Origin: Candidatus Pseudothioglobus singularis PS1
GTDB lineage: Bacteria; Pseudomonadota; Gammaproteobacteria; PS1; Pseudothioglobaceae
Assembly (NCBI RefSeq): GCF_001281385.1
Contig: NZ_CP006911.1
Coordinates: forward strand, 1,178,001-1,242,000
Reading direction: 5' to 3'
Length of the DNA stretch: 64,000 nt
The notes below the pieces were generated by a model. That model saw nothing but the letters and a program-made list of their open reading frames with translations, was not told the origin of the DNA and did not search any database. The stretch's first letter is position 1; each line of letters starts with the position of its first letter. Both the position numbers and the translations under genes were made by a program. Below are positions 6,424 through 56,646 of this stretch, in pieces.

Positions 6424-7110
6424 ATGTCTAATGTAAGAGATTTATCACTTGACCTAATAAGAGGTTTAGCCATCATTATGATGATTGCTTTTCACTTTAT
6501 TTATGATCTAAACTCTTTTGGCTTTACCCAGATCCCCTTATTTACACATTGGCTTGGTATTGCTTGGCGCTGCTTAATTGTCTTTCTGTTCTTAAGTGCA
6601 GTAGGGATTAGTCTAGTTTTAGCGCATAAAGATCATCTAAAATTCAAAAAATTTTTGAAGCGTATATTTTATTTAGGATTGGCAGCCCTTCTAGTTTCTG
6701 CTGGAACTTTTGTAATATTTCCAGATGGATGGGTTTATTTTGGTATTCTTCATTTAATTTGGATTTCATCATTGATAGCAATATTATTTGTTAATCACCC
6801 GAAAACATCCCTATTAATTGCTGTAATAATTCTCATTGCTTCCATATTTGACCAGCCAGATTTAAGCTTTATTTCAAATATATTTGGGCCTTACCTGCCA
6901 ATAGGAAGTGTAGACTACTACCCCCTATTTCCATGGCTATCCTTTGTCTTTATAGGGATTTACCTTGGACATCACCCTTATTATAAGACAGTCTTTTCAA
7001 TGAGATCGCACTGGATTCAAATGATGGGAAGGCATGCTCTAGTAATCTATCTTTCCCATCAGATAATTTTATTTGGTTTAGTGGCTTCAGTGTTCTTCTT
7101 GTTAAACTGA
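6424..7110 (+). CDS. DUF1624-type multi-pass membrane protein
   Basis: A 228-residue protein with about six or seven hydrophobic helices. The N-terminal signature LSLDLIRGLAIIMMIAFHFIYDL is typical of the DUF1624 family, which is distantly related to membrane acyltransferases such as heparan-alpha-glucosaminide N-acetyltransferase. The HQIILFG near the C terminus is also a family feature. It lies 15 bp downstream of mog on the same strand and may be cotranscribed, but no link to molybdenum metabolism is evident. Substrate unknown. Confidence 0.75.
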   Translation: MSNVRDLSLDLIRGLAIIMMIAFHFIYDLNSFGFTQIPLFTHWLGIAWRCLIVFLFLSAVGISLVLAHKDHLKFKKFLKRIFYLGLAALLVSAGTFVIFPDGWVYFGILHLIWISSLIAILFVNHPKTSLLIAVIILIASIFDQPDLSFISNIFGPYLPIGSVDYYPLFPWLSFVFIGIYLGHHPYYKTVFSMRSHWIQMMGRHALVIYLSHQIILFGLVASVFFLLN

Positions 7111-8413
7111 TAAGCCAAGATTTTTTTTCTTTTTAATTTGAATAGACTTGGTCAGCTTTGAAGAGACTGATACTGGCTGTTGATTTGAATAATCTTCATG
7201 ATTTTTTGCTACTAAATCTAAATCATACAAGTAATTTACCATAACGCCCCAAGAATCATCCAAAGCATTCTGATTATCGTTTGCATGAGTATGAATATCA
7301 AAAAGATAAGCGCCATTCCCTAGATGAAAATGAGCAACAGGGTTTAAAGCAGCCCCTTTACTGTTCTTCTCTTGACTTAAGTAATGGTGTGTTAATCTGC
7401 GCAAAATTGCCATTCCTGGCGAAGAATTTCCAGCACATGACTGAATATCTTTGATTATCTGTTCAGGAATTTCATCAGCACCCGATAAGTTAACTTTTTC
7501 TACCCATTTTCTAAGTCCTGGAACAGGAGATAAAGTCACAAACTGATTAATTTGGTTAAACTCAAGCTGAATTTCGGAAACCACTTGCTTAATCAAGAAG
7601 CTGCCAAAAGAAACCCCTTTTAAGGCTATTTGGCAGTTTGAAATAGAATAAAAAACAGCAGTATTTGCATTTAATGGGTCGATAGGCTTTACAGAAGTAT
7701 CAAGAATTGGCATTATTGAATTAGGCACTTCGTTCATAAGTGCTACTTCAATAAAAATTAGTGGCTCATTCGGCAGGGCAGGATGAAAAAAGCATACAAT
7801 CTTCTATCTGAGGCGGCCACTCTATTTTGAAGATCTTCCCAATCAGAAATATCATGAACAGCCTCATACTCCATTATCTTTTCAAGAACCTGTGCACTTG
7901 TAGACCAATCAATTCGCTCTAATCTCAGAAAACCACGATTAAACCATGACTTGAATAAGTGAACAAAATCAAAGTCAAGAGACCTTAACTCAGGCAACTC
8001 CTTAATGAATGTTAATAGGGAACCCCTCATCTTTAATAAAGCTGGAGTTCCGTTTGGTATCTGGTTAAGCCTTCTAAGAAGATTTGACTCTTTGGCTCTA
8101 TTATCCTATGTAAGTCTCTCAGTTGACGGTCATCATCAATATCAAGATCACTAATTGCTGATTTAAGTTGGTCACGATCAACACTAAACTCTTTTAATAG
8201 TTTAAGAAAAAAAACTTTCTTTTGTTCATCTGAAAGTTTTTCAAAATCCTCCAATACTAATTTTGCTAAGGAAAATAGAGTTGACTCGCCTCTCCTACTT
8301 ATCAGTTGATGACAAAGATCAATAATGCCCTCAGGACTTGGTTGATTTTGGCTTACTCGACCTATTCCAATTCGCTGAATAATTGAATTTAAAAAATTCT
8401 GATGTTGTTTCAT
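7102..8413 (-). pseudogene. Malonyl-CoA decarboxylase, disrupted by two single-base frameshifts
   Basis: Three consecutive frames together encode one malonyl-CoA decarboxylase (malonyl-CoA to acetyl-CoA plus CO2). The N-terminal helical part (8413-8033) contains DLHRIIEPK. The middle part (8030-7758) contains HLFKSWFNRGFL and EAVHDISDW. The catalytic part (7737-7102) contains KGVSFGSFLIKQVV, LSPVPGL and NPVAHFHLGNGA with the conserved histidine. Frame is lost near 8064-8068, where one more A would restore GLNQIPNGT. It is lost again in a six-T run (plus-strand A run 7786-7791), where one more T would restore FFHPALPNEPL. Repaired length is about 437 aa, normal for the family. The start at 8413 is chosen for its AGGAG. 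It is the last gene of the cbb operon. Either true decay, slippage, or sequencing error. Confidence 0.85.
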
Positions 8414-8457
8414 CTTGCTCCTGAAATTGAGCAACTATTGTAGATTAATTATTGTAA

Positions 8458-8991
8458 TTATTCAATAGCACTAAAACGAAAGACATTGACTGCAATATAA
8501 TCATTATAAGCAGCCCCTGACTGAAGCCAATTCCTAGCCTTGACTGAAGATATTTTTGAGTTCAGCTTATCTTCAAGTTGAAGGAATAAGCCATATTTAA
8601 AAATATAATCTTCATCTGTTAACATGCACAATTCGCCATCAGAAACAATAAGGCTTTTCTCTGGCATATCTCCTGGCTGAGCAGTAAATGAAGTCTCACC
8701 ATTTTCATTCATCAAGTCTGATAATTTTGTTTCAAAATATTCTTTACTGAGTGGGCTATGTGTATAGTAATTTGTAAACAAATCTTCAGACTCAATCTCT
8801 AAGTAACCTCTCAAATCCTCAATAGAGGAAAACCTTTCATCTTCTATCCAAAAGATCACAAAGGCACCATTTGAGACCCCAAGACCTAACTCTTTATCCT
8901 GAATCATTACAAGGGCGGAGCCATTAAGGATCGACTTCAAGAGATTTTGATCTAACGTTTTTATTTTGTTTTTAAAGTCACTTAGGTTCAT
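8458..8991 (-). CDS. Unrecognised protein in the cbb operon (177 aa)
   Basis: I do not recognise this family. The protein is soluble and acidic, with no signal peptide, no membrane helix and no nucleotide-binding motif. It alternates predicted helix and strand; a strand-rich stretch GLGVSNGAFVIFWIEDERF sits near residue 55, and the C-terminal half has LEDKLNSKISSVKARNWL. It begins 5 bp after the preceding 85-aa gene and is followed 44 bp later by malonyl-CoA decarboxylase, so it is very probably cotranscribed with cbbLSQO. Position suggests a role tied to CO2 fixation, which is inference only. Confidence 0.7.
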   Translation of the reverse strand: MNLSDFKNKIKTLDQNLLKSILNGSALVMIQDKELGLGVSNGAFVIFWIEDERFSSIEDLRGYLEIESEDLFTNYYTHSPLSKEYFETKLSDLMNENGETSFTAQPGDMPEKSLIVSDGELCMLTDEDYIFKYGLFLQLEDKLNSKISSVKARNWLQSGAAYNDYIAVNVFRFSAIE

Positions 8992-8996
8992 ATTAT

Positions 8997-9254
8997 TTAA
9001 CGTGATTGATATAACATAGACTTAAGGGTTTGAAAGTTAGTAGCAATTTTTCTTAGCGAATCTTCACCATCATCATTACTAACACTCCCCTCTTCAATTT
9101 CCTTGACTTTATCAACATACATTTTCTTCAGTGTATTTGTTGTTGCCAAAATTTCGTATACAGTTGGGGCTGCCTTATCCTTCCAATTTTCAGGCAAAAG
9201 AAAAGGATAACTTGGATCAAAATCTATTAATTTATCATCTTTTTGAATTACCAT
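8997..9254 (-). CDS. Unrecognised small protein immediately after cbbO (85 aa)
   Basis: Short acidic protein with no recognised domain. The N-terminal half is proline- and aromatic-rich (IDFDPSYPFLLPENWKD), followed by a helical, charged segment likely to form a coiled coil or helical hairpin. The ATG at 9254 overlaps the cbbO stop (TGATG), a typical coupling arrangement; a GTG one codon earlier is possible. The tight overlap suggests the product is needed together with CbbO, but this is inference from position. Confidence 0.65.
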   Translation of the reverse strand: MVIQKDDKLIDFDPSYPFLLPENWKDKAAPTVYEILATTNTLKKMYVDKVKEIEEGSVSNDDGEDSLRKIATNFQTLKSMLYQSR

Positions 9255-11617
9255 CACTTTGTTAGCGATATAAATAGTTGAGGCAATCTTTCTGGTAATT
9301 TTTCAAGGTTATCAATCACCATAAAACGATTTTTTCCAAAAATCCTAGCCACATACTGGTCAGCATATGGATCTAAACTGATGCAAAATGTTACAATGCC
9401 ATGACCTCTAAGCTCTTCAACTGCTTTTTTTGCGTCCATACGAAGATGTTGTGGGTCATCTACATCGATATCTGCGGGCTCACCATCTGTCAAAACTAAT
9501 AAAATTTTCTTTGCAGAAGACTGCGTTAATAAATCGATACCAGCATGTCTGATCGCCGCCCCCATCCTTGTCGAAAGACCCCCTTTAATTCCAGCCAATC
9601 TGCCTTTTACTTCATCATTAAAACTAAAATGAAATGGCTTGAATCGATAATACTGGACATCATGCCTTGAGTCTGAGGCAAAACCTGAAATCGTTAAATT
9701 GTCTCCAATTTTATCGATTGCCCATGAAAGCAGCGAGGTGGCTTCTCTCATTAGCTCCAGGATTGTCTTTTCACTCCCAACAACCATGTCATTTGTCGAC
9801 TCAGACAAATCCATAAGAAGGTTAACTGATACATCTCTAATGTGCTGAACCTTCTTAACATATATTCGATCTGAGGGTGTTGTTCCTACCCTGATATCCG
9901 ACAGCGCTGTGACGCATGCGTCAATATCAAGCTCACTACCCTCTTGTTGCTTTTTTAACTTAACGAGTCCTTGGGGCTGCATCTGGTCAATCGCATTTTT
10001 GAGATTATTTGCAATCGGCTTATGCTCTTTAAGAATATTATTGATAACCTCAGAGTTACCCTTTCGTAATCTTCTTTCATAAAGCGTTGCCCAATTCGGA
10101 CGATACAACTGTAATTGATAATCCCATTCATTGTAATGAAACGGCTCACTAACAGGCTCTTTACCCTCGATTTCATTAATGCTTACACCATCCAGCTCAT
10201 CAGGAAAGTACTCTGTCTCAAGTGTCCAAATTTCCTGTGCATCATCGCCTGCAGTCTCTACATCAAGCTCATTATACATCTCCATGATGTTTGCTTTTCT
10301 TCTCACCTGTCGCTGACTTGCAGGAACATAATCATTCCCTTCTGAAACCCAGTCCAAGTCCTCATATTCCCATATATAGCGATTATCGTCTCTGTATGAA
10401 ATGGGAGCAGCAACTAGTGCTGAGGCACTTATTTTGACATCAGTCTCTGATTTGATAATTTCATAATACTCCAAACCTAACTCAAAGCTTATGTCTGAAG
10501 AGTTAACGGATACTTTCATTTCTGTATTGAATAATTTTAAAAAATCTTTATTAAATGACTGCTTTGCTTTGTATTTCGAGTCAAGTGCCAACCTTGATAA
10601 ATCTACTAAGTCAATAATAAATGGATTGAGATCTTTCAAATCCTCATCCTCAGGGTGCAATGCAATCCATAGCTTTTTCATCCCTGGGAACTTCTTAATA
10701 GTATTTAATTCAACTCTTAAGTCCTCTATCAAAGAGACACAAGCAACCTGCAATGGATTTAATTGGTCACCTTTAAAGGCTGAAGTTGTTTCCATGATAT
10801 GCGCTGCTGCATGAGCACAGACTGCTCGATAACAATTTATACCTGGAACAATCCTACCTGAAGCGTGCTTATAATCATCATAAGCGTCTGGAATATGCAT
10901 TACTCCATATTCAATGTATGGCTTCAAGCCTTTCTTTGTCTCATAGTCTCCAGAGGTTGGGCGCAGAAAAAAATCACGGTTGTAAAATGCTCTCAAATAA
11001 AACTGAAGCTTTCTCTGATTATCTATAAAAAGAGTGCCTCGCCTCTCCTGTTCAAGAATTTGCAGTGACTCGGCACTACTAAGCTCAAAATAAGCAATCT
11101 GAGCCTTAAAATCTCTATTGAAAGTTTCTGCTCCATACAGAACCCATCGCCTGAGCCCTCCCAAAGTCAGTTTACTTGTTAATAGATCAATGTTATTAAG
11201 CATTGGCCTCATTCCTCGAGGGGCAAGTGCAATCATCCTTTCTAATAATCGAAGGTACCCCTTCAACAGATCAAAATCACTCATTCGTCTTGCAACATTT
11301 GGGAGGCTTGAAATCATTAAAACAATTACGGCAGCTGAAGTTTGTGAGGACAATTTCATTATCGAAAAGACAATTTCACCAATGATAGACTCACCAACTT
11401 CTCTAACAACCATGGGGGTTTCTTCTAGGAATGAAATAACCATGTCCTCACCCTTTCCCATTGCATGAAGGGCGCCAGCACCATCTAGGTACACTTTAAG
11501 GCCATTAGGCGTCATCACTTTCGAGGCCTCTACAAAACTTCCAGTTAAAGCATCATGAAGGACGCTAGAGGGGTTTTGAAACTTATCCTCAAAATCCGAT
11601 AGTTGAACCGAACTCAT
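9254..11617 (-). CDS. cbbO: RuBisCO activase adaptor CbbO (von Willebrand A domain)
   Basis: Partner of the AAA+ protein CbbQ in the CbbQO RuBisCO activase, which removes inhibitory sugar phosphates from RuBisCO. The 787-residue length fits the family. The C-terminal vWA domain carries the metal-ion-dependent adhesion site DLSES at residues 603-607 and a TDGEPAD motif near 710. The N-terminal two thirds is helical and resembles the CbbO/NorD family. The NorD alternative is excluded by the neighbours: cbbQ lies 9 bp upstream and cbbLS upstream of that. The 3' end overlaps the next small gene. Confidence 0.93.
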   Translation of the reverse strand: MSSVQLSDFEDKFQNPSSVLHDALTGSFVEASKVMTPNGLKVYLDGAGALHAMGKGEDMVISFLEETPMVVREVGESIIGEIVFSIMKLSSQTSAAVIVLMISSLPNVARRMSDFDLLKGYLRLLERMIALAPRGMRPMLNNIDLLTSKLTLGGLRRWVLYGAETFNRDFKAQIAYFELSSAESLQILEQERRGTLFIDNQRKLQFYLRAFYNRDFFLRPTSGDYETKKGLKPYIEYGVMHIPDAYDDYKHASGRIVPGINCYRAVCAHAAAHIMETTSAFKGDQLNPLQVACVSLIEDLRVELNTIKKFPGMKKLWIALHPEDEDLKDLNPFIIDLVDLSRLALDSKYKAKQSFNKDFLKLFNTEMKVSVNSSDISFELGLEYYEIIKSETDVKISASALVAAPISYRDDNRYIWEYEDLDWVSEGNDYVPASQRQVRRKANIMEMYNELDVETAGDDAQEIWTLETEYFPDELDGVSINEIEGKEPVSEPFHYNEWDYQLQLYRPNWATLYERRLRKGNSEVINNILKEHKPIANNLKNAIDQMQPQGLVKLKKQQEGSELDIDACVTALSDIRVGTTPSDRIYVKKVQHIRDVSVNLLMDLSESTNDMVVGSEKTILELMREATSLLSWAIDKIGDNLTISGFASDSRHDVQYYRFKPFHFSFNDEVKGRLAGIKGGLSTRMGAAIRHAGIDLLTQSSAKKILLVLTDGEPADIDVDDPQHLRMDAKKAVEELRGHGIVTFCISLDPYADQYVARIFGKNRFMVIDNLEKLPERLPQLFISLTK

Positions 11618-11626
11618 ATCAGTTTT

Positions 11627-12430
11627 TTATTCAAAAAAAGTATCAATAGCGGCGTTCAAGGTGTCCACGATGTCCAAGTCATCGGTTATGGGATTAACCA
11701 TAGCAATTTTGCAGGCTGATTTTTGATTCACCTTGTCTGCAATTAGTTGTCCTGCATATACGCACAATCGAGTTGAGATTCCTTCATCTAAACCATGGCC
11801 AACTAAGTTTCTTGCTCTTTGGGCCACTTGAACTAACTTGATAGCAGTTTCTTTATTGACACCAGACTCTTTTGCAATAATATGAGCCTCAGTTTTTTCA
11901 TCAGGATAATGAAAATTAAAGCCGCAGAATCTTTGCTTTGTTGACTGTTTAAGGTCTTTCATTAAGTTTTGATAGCCTGGATTATATGAAATCACTAACT
12001 GAAAATCTGGATGTGCCTCAATCAACTCTCCCTTCTTATCAAGCGGCAAGGTTCTTCTATAGTCAGTAAGTGGATGAATTACAACAGTTGTATCTTGTCT
12101 TGCCTCTACCACTTCATCTAAATAACATATACCACCATAGCGAGCCGCCATTGCTAATGGACCATCTTGCCAAATAGTACCCTCTTTATCAAGCAAAAAC
12201 CGCCCCACGAGATCACTCGCAGACATATCTTCATTGCAAGCAACAGTGATTAATGGTTTATCTAATTTATAAGCCATATATTCTACAAAGCGAGACTTGC
12301 CACAACCAGTTGGCCCTTTTAGCATTACTGGCATACGGTTCATGTAGGCAGCTGTATACATTTCAATTTCATCTTCTTGGGGCTGATAGAAGGGCTCTTC
12401 AGCAATTTTATATTGGTCTAATTCATTCAT
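11627..12430 (-). CDS. cbbQ: RuBisCO activase AAA+ ATPase CbbQ
   Basis: MoxR-type AAA+ ATPase that works with CbbO to reactivate inhibited RuBisCO. Walker A GPTGCGKS is at residues 39-46, Walker B is in ICYLDEVVEAR near 115, and a sensor 1 region is VISYNPGYQ near 160. The 267-residue length is typical. A good AGGA ribosome site precedes the start. An intrinsic terminator sits between cbbS and this gene, so expression probably depends on partial readthrough. NorQ is the closest alternative; context decides for CbbQ. Confidence 0.95.
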   Translation of the reverse strand: MNELDQYKIAEEPFYQPQEDEIEMYTAAYMNRMPVMLKGPTGCGKSRFVEYMAYKLDKPLITVACNEDMSASDLVGRFLLDKEGTIWQDGPLAMAARYGGICYLDEVVEARQDTTVVIHPLTDYRRTLPLDKKGELIEAHPDFQLVISYNPGYQNLMKDLKQSTKQRFCGFNFHYPDEKTEAHIIAKESGVNKETAIKLVQVAQRARNLVGHGLDEGISTRLCVYAGQLIADKVNQKSACKIAMVNPITDDLDIVDTLNAAIDTFFE

Positions 12431-12445
12431 AATTTAATCCTTTCG

Positions 12446-12477
12446 AAAAAAAAACCCCTGCTGTTAGACAGGGGTTT
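12446..12477 (-). terminator. Intrinsic terminator/attenuator between cbbS and cbbQ
   Basis: Read on the minus strand, a 9-bp stem AAACCCCTG / CAGGGGTTT with an 8-base loop is followed directly by a run of T residues. It lies after the cbbS stop and before the cbbQ start. A classic rho-independent signal here should lower activase expression relative to RuBisCO subunits. Confidence 0.85.
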
Positions 12478-12507: not shown

Positions 12508-12867
12508 TTATTTAAAACCTTTGCCTCTGTAAATAACCATAGATGCACCTTGTGACTGAGCATAGTTATCATAACCAATTAAACGCACATGATTGTCAGG
12601 GTTAGCCTCATGACATGCTTTGCATTCATCAAGAATAGTATCAATATCTGTTTCTCCAAAAAGAGGTAATTTCCACATATACCAATAGTTTCCAGTTGCA
12701 TTTTCTACCTCAGTATGCTCTACTCCTGGATTGTATCCCTGATCAACAATATATTGAACTTGCTCTCGGATTTGCTTGTCTGTCATTGCTGGTAAGTATG
12801 AAAATGTCTCAAATTTTCTACTCGAATTATCACTTAAGCGTGAAGGATAGTCTTGAACTTTACTCAT
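12508..12867 (-). CDS. cbbS: RuBisCO small subunit, form I
   Basis: Small subunit of hexadecameric form I RuBisCO. The 119-residue protein has the expected [16 protein letters not shown] start region, an [13 protein letters not shown] strand and the C-terminal VRLIGYDN segment. It begins 40 bp downstream of cbbL with an AAGGAA ribosome site. Its presence shows the enzyme is form I, not the form II known from several SUP05 relatives. No carboxysome shell genes are nearby. Confidence 0.96.
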
Positions 12868-12907: not shown

Positions 12908-14329
12908 TTATTTATGCTGTATATCTAATTTATCAACAGTATCAAACTCAAATTTAATTTCTTTCCATGTTTCCATCGCCACTTTAAGCTCTGGTGAATG
13001 TTTTGCAGCATTGGTGAGAATATCTTTAGATTCCTTCTCTAGCTCTCTTCCTGCATTTCGAGCTTCAACACATGCTTCAACAGCAACTCGGTTTGCAGCA
13101 GCGCCAGCAGCATTACCCCAGGGATGTCCTAGCGTACCACCTCCAAACTGAAGTACTGAATCATCACCAAAGATATTAACTAAAGCAGGCATATGCCATA
13201 CGTGGATGCCACCAGATGCTACAGGTAACATCCCAGGCATTGAACCAAAATCTTGATCAAAGAAAATACCTCTTGAACGGTCCTCTTTAATAAAACTATC
13301 ACGCATACAATCGATCCAACCTAATGTAGAATCGCGATCACCTTCAAGTTTACCTACAACAGTTCCTGAGTGCATATGATCACCGCCAGAAAGCCTTAGG
13401 CATTTTGCAAGAACCCTAAAGTGAATACCATGGTTAGGGTTCCTATCAACAACAGCATGCATAGCTCTGTGAATGTGAAGCAATAGTCCATTATCACGAC
13501 ACCAGTTTGCGAGGCCAGTATTTGCTGTAAAGCCAGCCGTAAAAAAGTCATGCATAATTATTGGTGTACCTAACTCTTTTGCATACTCAGCACGCTTATA
13601 CATCTCTTCAGGAGTTGGCGCTGTCACGTTTAAATAGTGCCCTTTACGTTCACCTGTTTCTTTTTCAGCTCTCTCAATGGCATCTTGAACGAATCCAAAA
13701 CGATCTCTCCAACGCATAAATGGTTGTGAATTTACGTTTTCATCATCTTTTGTAAAATCTAGACCGCCTCTAAGTCCTTCATAGCATGCACGACCATAAT
13801 TCTTAGCCGAAAGACCTAATTTAGGCTTAATGGTGCAACCCAACATGGGGCGTCCATACTTATTCATTTTGTCTCTCTCAACTTGAATTCCGTTAGGTGG
13901 ACCTCCACAAGTCATAACATAGGCAATTGGGAATCGAATATCTTCAAGTCTAAGGGCTCGCAGCGCTTTAAAACCAAATACATTTCCAACAAGGGATGTT
14001 AAGACATTAACAATAGACCCTTCCTCAAATAAATCAATTGGATAGGCAATAAATGCATAAATAGCATCATCCGAACCTGGAACGTCTTCAATTCTGTAGG
14101 CTCTACCCTTATAGTGATCAAGGTCTGTCAACAAATCTGTCCATACTGTTGTCCAAGTTCCAGTTGAAGATTCCGCAGCAACAGCTGCAGCAACTTCTTC
14201 TCTTGGCACACCCGGCTGAGGCGTTATTTTAAAACATGCAAGAATATCAGTATCTTTTGGCTCGTATTCGGGCATCCAATAGGTATCTCTATATTCTTTT
14301 ACTCCAGCATCGTATCCTTTTTTTGCCAT
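12908..14329 (-). CDS. cbbL: RuBisCO large subunit, form IA
   Basis: Catalytic subunit of ribulose-1,5-bisphosphate carboxylase/oxygenase. The 473 residues are full length. The catalytic lysine K168 lies in [11 protein letters not shown]. The carbamylated lysine K194 with metal ligands D196 and E197 is in DFTKDDE. Loop 6 is [12 protein letters not shown], and the phosphate-binding [10 protein letters not shown] is near the C terminus. Pairing with cbbS and the CbbQO activase, without carboxysome genes, indicates a cytosolic form IA enzyme of the Q type. A strong GAGGGGA ribosome site precedes the ATG. It is the first gene of the operon, divergent from the LysR regulator. Confidence 0.98.
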
Positions 14330-54586: not shown

Positions 54587-55279
54587 TTATCCCATAGAAT
54601 GGCTATAGCTTTCTAAACCATCTAAAACCAAATTATCAAAGAGTTCTATAGATTTGGGAAGCTCTTTTTTAATTTCTTTTACTTTTCCTCCACAAATAGT
54701 AACAACACCATCAGAGAAGTTAGATTGAAAACTTTCAATTTGATGATTGATAGCACTAATCATCATTGAATAGGTTCCCTGCTTCCAAGCATCATCAGTA
54801 TTATTTGCATAACCTTTTAAACTAACACTTAAATCACTCGTTTTAAACTTCTCAAAACTCCCCCTAAGGGCTTTGATACCTGGCATTATGAGGCCTCCAT
54901 GATGAAGCCCATTTTTATCAATCACGTCAAAGGTAATAGCACTCCCAATATCGATTACTAAAAGCGGATTATTAGGAAAATGATTTATTGCACCTAACAT
55001 GGCTAAAAAACGATCTGCGCCTAACATAGAAGGGTCATCATACGAGAGTGTAAGATTTCCAAATATCTTTTGAGTTTTTATTATATTGATTGTCTCAAAA
55101 TGAGTGGTAATATCCTGAACAATATCTGAATGAGCAACAGCACTCAACCAGGCAGTGCTGGACTGGTTAAGAGCTGTTATTGAAAAATTTTCTATATCCT
55201 CTAAAAAAACTTTTGAATCACTCGTACGCCATTTAATCGCAGAGTTTCCAATATCTATATAGAGGTTAGATTGGGACAT
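54587..55279 (-). CDS. coaX: Type III pantothenate kinase CoaX
   Basis: First step of coenzyme A synthesis. The 230-residue protein has YIDIGNSAIKWR, the pantothenate-binding GADRFLAMLGA and VIDIGSAITFDVID, with the later GGLIMPGI. The ATG at 55279 overlaps the end of nhaD by 14 bp; longer forms starting upstream add unrelated residues. With coaD at 33536, two CoA-pathway enzymes are present. Confidence 0.92.
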   Translation of the reverse strand: MSQSNLYIDIGNSAIKWRTSDSKVFLEDIENFSITALNQSSTAWLSAVAHSDIVQDITTHFETINIIKTQKIFGNLTLSYDDPSMLGADRFLAMLGAINHFPNNPLLVIDIGSAITFDVIDKNGLHHGGLIMPGIKALRGSFEKFKTSDLSVSLKGYANNTDDAWKQGTYSMMISAINHQIESFQSNFSDGVVTICGGKVKEIKKELPKSIELFDNLVLDGLESYSHSMG

Positions 55280-56646
55280 CGAAAAGTGCTGAATTAATCC
55301 ATAAATGGACCAAAATACTGGCAGCATATCCTAGGGCAATTGCCCAAATCCATTTTAAGTGAGACACAAAAGTATAATAACCTCTTGATTGGCCCATTAA
55401 GGCCACACCGGCAGCAGATCCAATTGATAAAAGACTTCCACCCACTCCTGCTGTCAATGTAACCAATAACCATTGACCCAGTGACATATCTGGCGTCATT
55501 GTTAAGACCGCAAACATAACCGGAATATTGTCCACAATCGCAGATAAGATACCAACTAAGACGTTAGCATAAGTTGCGCCCAGCTGAACGTACATCGCTT
55601 CAGAAACTAAAGCTAAATAACCCATAAAGCCAAGTCCACCAACACTTACTATGACACCAAAGAAAAATAGAAGCGTGTCCCATTCTGCTCTTGATACCAT
55701 TGTAAAAATATCAAACTTTTCAGATTTATTTTCACTTGGATTTTGGCGTTTGATAAAGTAACTCACAACCATTAGATAGCCAAGTCCAGTCATCATACCC
55801 ATAGCTGGCGGCAAATGAAGAAAATTATGAAAGCTGACTGCAGTAGCAATTGTCAATAGAAATAAGAAAGTAATTACAATACCACCTGTTTTGATATCAA
55901 CCGTCTCATCAATTGCCTTAGGCTTTTCATTTTTAATTGCAAAATGCATAATACCCTGCAGGTATGAGGTAGTTAACCGCTGATGGTAAAAATAAGACAA
56001 AAAACTGCTGAAAATCAACAAGCCCCTTCTGCCAAACCATAAGTGTTGTAATATCTCCAAATGGGCTAAAAGCACCGCCCGCATTGGCTGCTACAACAAT
56101 ATTTACAAATCCAATTGAAATAAATCGGGCATTCCCAGCCCCAACAGCAAGTACAACTGCACCCATAACAAGTGCAGTAGTCAAATTATCAGCAATTGGT
56201 GACATAAAGAATGCAATTACACCCGTGAGCCAGAAAAGCTGTCTGTAACTAAAGTTTTTAGAAATAAGCCAAACTTTTAATTTATCGAATACAAGGCGCT
56301 CTCTCATTGACTCGATATAAGTCATTGCTACTAGAAGGAAAAGGAATAGCTCAGCAAACTCTAAAAAGTTGTGCCTTACTGCAACCTCTGCAGCATGTGG
56401 AATACCATTTACGGCATAAACCCAACCTATAATTGCCCATATAACACCAGCGGCCAAGATTACAGGCTTCGACTTTCGCAAGTGTGTAAATTCCTCTAGC
56501 ATTACAAATATGTATGCCAGTACAAAGAGTGTTAGAGCAATGTAACCAGCCATATGCTTAGTTAAATCAAGATTTTCAGCAGTAGAAGCTGCGACACTTA
56601 AGCTTGGAATAAAGCTTATAAGGATTAGTAATATTTTATTCATCAT
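55266..56646 (-). pseudogene. nhaD: NhaD-type Na+/H+ antiporter with a +1 frameshift
   Basis: Two overlapping frames together encode one NhaD antiporter of about 458 residues. The first (to 55933) has a signal-like N terminus and PIADNLTTALVMGA and NAGGAFSPFGDITT; the second (from about 55950) continues IMHFAIKNEKP through IVDNIPVMFAVLTM and the final helices. Frame changes at the plus-strand CCC at 55954-55956: removing one base joins NYLIPA directly to GIMHFA, matching the family. All motifs on both sides are intact, so a sequence error or a very recent mutation is likely. Confidence 0.87.

Follow-up and report, generated by a model that had tools for sequence, protein, structure and literature searches.

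CbbQO serves as the RuBisCO activase of many chemoautotrophs, and small RuBisCO-linked proteins such as Raf1, RbcX, and acRAF act as RuBisCO assembly factors. For the CbbQ1-CbbO1 (Q1O1) activase of A. ferrooxidans, published work describes specificity for form I RuBisCO and an ATPase response to inhibited RuBisCO of only 2-fold, against 20-fold for Q2O2 (PMC4660213), a weak response that leaves room for a further factor.

In the window analyzed here (the whole stretch of 64,000 nucleotides), the minus strand carried cbbL, cbbS, cbbQ, and cbbO, followed by genes for an 85-aa protein (p85) and a 177-aa protein (p177) and by a malonyl-CoA decarboxylase (MCD) gene. The lineage is a marine sulfur-oxidizer. 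The cbbL gene (12908..14329), encoding the form I RuBisCO large subunit, matched NCBIfam NF003252 with 799 bits, and cbbS (12508..12867), encoding the small subunit, matched PF00101. The activase genes showed the domains of a CbbQO-type activase, with AAA_5 (PF07728, 109.5 bits) and CbbQ_C (PF08406, 99.5 bits) in the MoxR-type AAA+ subunit encoded by cbbQ (11627..12430), and a C-terminal VWA domain (PF00092, 34.8 bits) together with the DxSxS motif (DLSES in the translation) in the subunit encoded by cbbO (9254..11617). The ATG of the p85 gene (8997..9254) overlapped the TGA of cbbO by 1 base (TGATG), 5 bp separated p85 from p177 (8458..8991), and 44 bp lay between p177 and the ATG of the MCD gene (7102..8413). 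Coordinates and domain scans thus confirmed the order, the common strand, and the overlap and spacing (5-44 bp) that the first-pass annotation had given for cbbLSQO-p85-p177-MCD.

The genes p85 and p177, which belong to no Pfam or NCBIfam family, were recognized by their adjacency and distribution. Compared with a relative (L003), differences at codon positions 1/2/3 numbered 37/19/67 in p177 and 18/11/40 in p85, indicating purifying selection and hence that both are real genes, and both diverge faster than cbbO. The encoded proteins are acidic (pI 4.9 for p85 and 4.5 for p177). The earlier reader had been unable to recognize either protein, and they indeed gave no credible match: Pfam, NCBIfam, and PHROGs yielded no usable family, and a PDB profile search yielded no meaningful hit. 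Likewise, no family match in Pfam or NCBIfam tied either protein to the known RuBisCO assembly factors, and the literature searched, by title, abstract, or passage, contained no report of either gene or of an MCD gene beside RuBisCO. The AlphaFold models, built from shallow alignments, were weak, with p85 resembling a helical hairpin and p177 having no clear fold.

A p85 profile was searched against 83 genomes from eleven genera of a Thioglobaceae-type family (putative assignment), and p85 was detected in 32 of them, covering seven of the eleven genera; two of the 32 (G033 and G468) held broken remnants only. All 32 were among the 41 family genomes with a form-I-type CbbO, as against 0/42 without one (p=3.6e-15, shared ancestry ignored), and the same held outside the window's genus (18/23 against 0/31; p=3.5e-10, shared ancestry ignored), whereas nine family genomes with a form-I-type CbbO had no p85. 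Of the 29 fetched loci, 26 had the gene on the cbbO strand and at most 1.5 kb downstream, and in G031 and G477 the distance was about 2.4-2.7 kb. One of the remnants (G468, C1:788411-788636) sits directly behind an intact form-I-type cbbO; the other is at C51:7234-7474 of G033.

For p177, the profile matched 8 of 369 gammaproteobacterial genomes, two of the matches spanning only the C-terminal half, and a wider profile (A5) revealed no genomes beyond these 8 of 369. Full-length CbbO matches were present in 104 of the 369 genomes and in all eight with p177; leaving out the window's genome, the contrast was 7/103 against 0/265 (p=1.2e-4, shared ancestry ignored). Within the genus, p177 was found in 13 of 18 genomes with a form-I-type CbbO (five lacking it) and in 0/11 without. 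In a second gammaproteobacterial family, represented by G227 (L094), where p177 directly follows cbbLSQO, the gene occurred in 24 of 59 genomes, and 23 of these 24 matches lay after cbbO on the same strand, with one cation-efflux-type gene between in two. Homologs beside cbbQO in other genomes, whose absence the first-pass annotation had named as refuting its proposal, therefore exist, p85 in other genera and p177 in a second family. The association tests take no account of shared ancestry; more weight falls on this adjacency, which recurs across separate genera and again in a second family.

Several observations taken together lead to the view that p85 and p177 are probably real helper genes: the gene order, a p85 start coupled to the cbbO stop, sequences under purifying selection, repeated occurrence after cbbO, and absence from genomes that have no form-I-type CbbO. 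More specifically, and tentatively, they may encode small cytosolic proteins that serve form IA RuBisCO and its CbbQ-CbbO (Q1O1-type) activase in an accessory role. Both genes are linked to form-I-type CbbO and occur only with it, as a third component would, with exceptions in linkage and none in co-occurrence. The proteins would be made together with CbbQ-CbbO and would most likely act on that activase. Of the earlier proposal of accessory factors for the RuBisCO activase, the association was borne out (behind form-I-type cbbO, absent without it), whereas action on the activase is what we infer: p85 and p177 would bind the activase or RuBisCO as adaptors or modulators, aiding CbbO in docking on inhibited RuBisCO or in releasing it, or they might instead stabilize the CbbQ6-CbbO1 complex. 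Counting against the accessory role, purified Q1O1 from A. ferrooxidans is able to activate form I RuBisCO with no such proteins present (PMC4660213). Moreover, most CbbO-bearing gammaproteobacteria in the 369-genome sample carried neither gene, indicating that neither p85 nor p177 is essential in general.

The layout between the RuBisCO and activase genes bears on a first alternative, namely that p85 and p177 aid the folding or assembly of RuBisCO (its biogenesis) rather than its reactivation, as Raf1, RbcX, and acRAF do, while being unrelated to these in sequence. A strong terminator-like hairpin with a T run (12452..12477, read from 12477 to 12452 on the minus strand), with a second hairpin before it, occupies the cbbS/cbbQ gap and was present in all six relatives folded; no other terminator was called on the minus strand from cbbQ to the MCD gene except a weak one inside cbbQ. 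Given this hairpin after cbbS, cbbQ-cbbO-p85-p177 are likely expressed through limited read-through or from a promoter of their own, and the hairpin likely lowers the output of the activase genes compared with that of RuBisCO. An assembly role is weakened by this arrangement, since p85 and p177 stand behind cbbO rather than beside cbbS, with the conserved hairpin separating them from cbbLS, and by the lack of sequence relation to any Pfam or NCBIfam family. It gains, nevertheless, from an equally strict association with form I and from a YbbN-like gene (thioredoxin plus TPR), of the family of the chaperedoxin CnoX, which follows p85 in 14 SUP05-type loci (L191-L197, L199-L204, and L206) and, in the second family, lies convergently beside p177 at four loci (L156 and L159-L161); in some loci the TPR part alone was matched. 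On balance, a role in biogenesis appears rather unlikely.

Twelve public loci of the same genus (SUP05 cluster, Candidatus Pseudothioglobus among them) were compared, all of which contain p177 because it served as the query. In these loci, cbbLSQO lay beside lysR and argJ, and also DUF1624 and mog where the contig was long enough; p85 was present in ten (absent from L005 and L012) and the MCD gene in eleven (absent from L006). Elsewhere in the genus, L091 and L092 had cbbLSQO-p85 only, and in G013 and G028 the MCD gene followed cbbO without p85 or p177. The surveyed order cbbO-p85-p177-MCD therefore recurs among genus loci, but p85, p177, or MCD is each missing from some. Depending on the genus member, the same chromosomal site carries either form I cbbLSQO or a form II cbbM-cbbQ2-cbbO2 set, the latter followed by the MCD gene in L086 and without it there in L087 and L088. 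This pattern suggests that RuBisCO forms have been exchanged at one locus. From these layouts, the MCD gene can apparently persist through an exchange of RuBisCO form, and p85 and p177 appear to travel with the form I cassette. In L090 (G013; 7169-11724), cbbQ and cbbO are present, and cbbL, cbbS, and lysR are absent between cbbQ and argJ, representing either an activase without its RuBisCO at the site or an assembly gap.

This modularity, with form I or form II sets depending on the genus member, would also fit a second alternative, in which p85 and p177, with roles unrelated to RuBisCO, ride as passengers on the 3' end of a cassette moving as one block, as would the position of p177 away from cbb genes on the contigs examined of four distant genomes (G045, G189, G198, and G325). 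Yet the genomes with p177 carry CbbO even where the two are unlinked, p85 never occurred without form-I-type CbbO in the 83 genomes, where two held its broken remnants, and the adjacency is repeated in two families, so that passengers seem an unlikely explanation.

The MCD gene showed a different picture. The first-pass annotation was right in placing it closely behind p177 (44 bp away), and both MCD_N (PF17408) and MCD (PF05292) scored far above cut-off, but instead of a single intact reading frame the gene falls into three frame-broken pieces on the minus strand (8434-8033, 8105-7758, and 7803-7102), the domain matches being spread over separate frames. At the same place, the gene of relatives is a single open frame of some 435 aa, and the pieces are 63-82% identical to an intact relative; compared with typical PF05292 malonyl-CoA decarboxylases, the difference thus lies in the broken frame. 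DNA alignment with four relatives located two 1-bp deletions specific to the window, near 8083/8084 and in an A/T run (7786-7791), as well as, toward the 3' end, an insertion of 1 bp that apparently occurs in the close relative L086 too. Codon-position differences from L003 (77/44/196) indicate long-term purifying selection over the rest of the gene, implying that the breaks are either very recent mutations or sequencing errors. Elsewhere in the window, a probable NhaD-type antiporter gene (55266-56646) is split into two overlapping frames (56646-55933 and 56084-55266), likely a second frameshift.

The earlier suggestion that malonyl-CoA breakdown, releasing CO2 and acetyl-CoA, is coupled to carbon fixation through an MCD gene belonging to the operon was not supported. 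Most genus members do have a same-strand MCD gene behind cbbO or p177, with form I and form II alike, and the gene has been under the long-term purifying selection noted above. Its presence in the genus was, however, not significantly associated with form I CbbO (10/13 with against 5/10 without; p=0.22); it can stand behind a form II set or away from cbb altogether, beside secG and tpiA in G005 and as a 38-40% identical version in G019 and G001; it is absent behind p177 or p85 in L006, L091, and L092; and it is broken in the present genome. The CO2 so released would also be trivial relative to ambient inorganic carbon. Such a coupling is therefore very improbable, and the MCD gene is best read as an ordinary enzyme gene of its own, a loosely linked neighbor that closes the locus at its 3' end in many members of the genus, whichever RuBisCO form precedes it.

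Other small genes were detected behind cbbO as well. A family of 110-140 aa, with a YNLWRRA motif and then LPILAW, followed cbbO in 17 of the 44 gammaproteobacterial loci examined (L048, L127, L130, L139, L147, L150, L151, and others), and the two members scanned had no Pfam match above threshold. A rarer family of 102-107 aa (GKIIRDAWVFG motif; L093 2820-3134, L140, L148, and L151) occupied the cbbS/cbbQ gap or a position behind cbbO, likewise with no Pfam match above cut-off. Remote homology among p85, p177, and these two families was rejected by hhalign. It may be a general trait that cbbO is followed by small helper-like genes, and within this wider set of unrelated proteins p85 and p177 could be undescribed, lineage-specific subunits or regulators of CbbQO (or form IA RuBisCO assembly factors), a reading to be held with caution. 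A third CbbQO component, if real, would bear on the weakness of Q1O1 in vitro and on the transfer of form IA RuBisCO into other hosts. Both families are unnamed in the libraries searched, and, given how tightly they associate with form I, they can be tested directly in cultured strains where the order cbbLSQO-p177 is intact.

Compared with known systems, p85 and p177 resemble Raf1, RbcX, and acRAF in being small and RuBisCO-linked, but differ in sharing no sequence similarity with them and in lying outside all Pfam and NCBIfam families. The Thiomicrospira crunogena-like cluster cbbM-lysR-lysR-cbbLS-cbbQ1-cbbO1 has the same order as the G227 locus, where p177 comes directly after cbbO, whereas the cluster as published, 13 kb long, is said to end with cbbO-1, with no gene behind it mentioned in the available part of the source (PMC5506194). 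The closest likeness is to the CbbQ1-CbbO1 activase of A. ferrooxidans, with cbbQ and cbbO directly behind cbbLS and domains identical in kind; the published in vitro system consists of CbbQ and CbbO only (PMC4660213), and to this plan the window adds two genes after cbbO, the first of them start-coupled.
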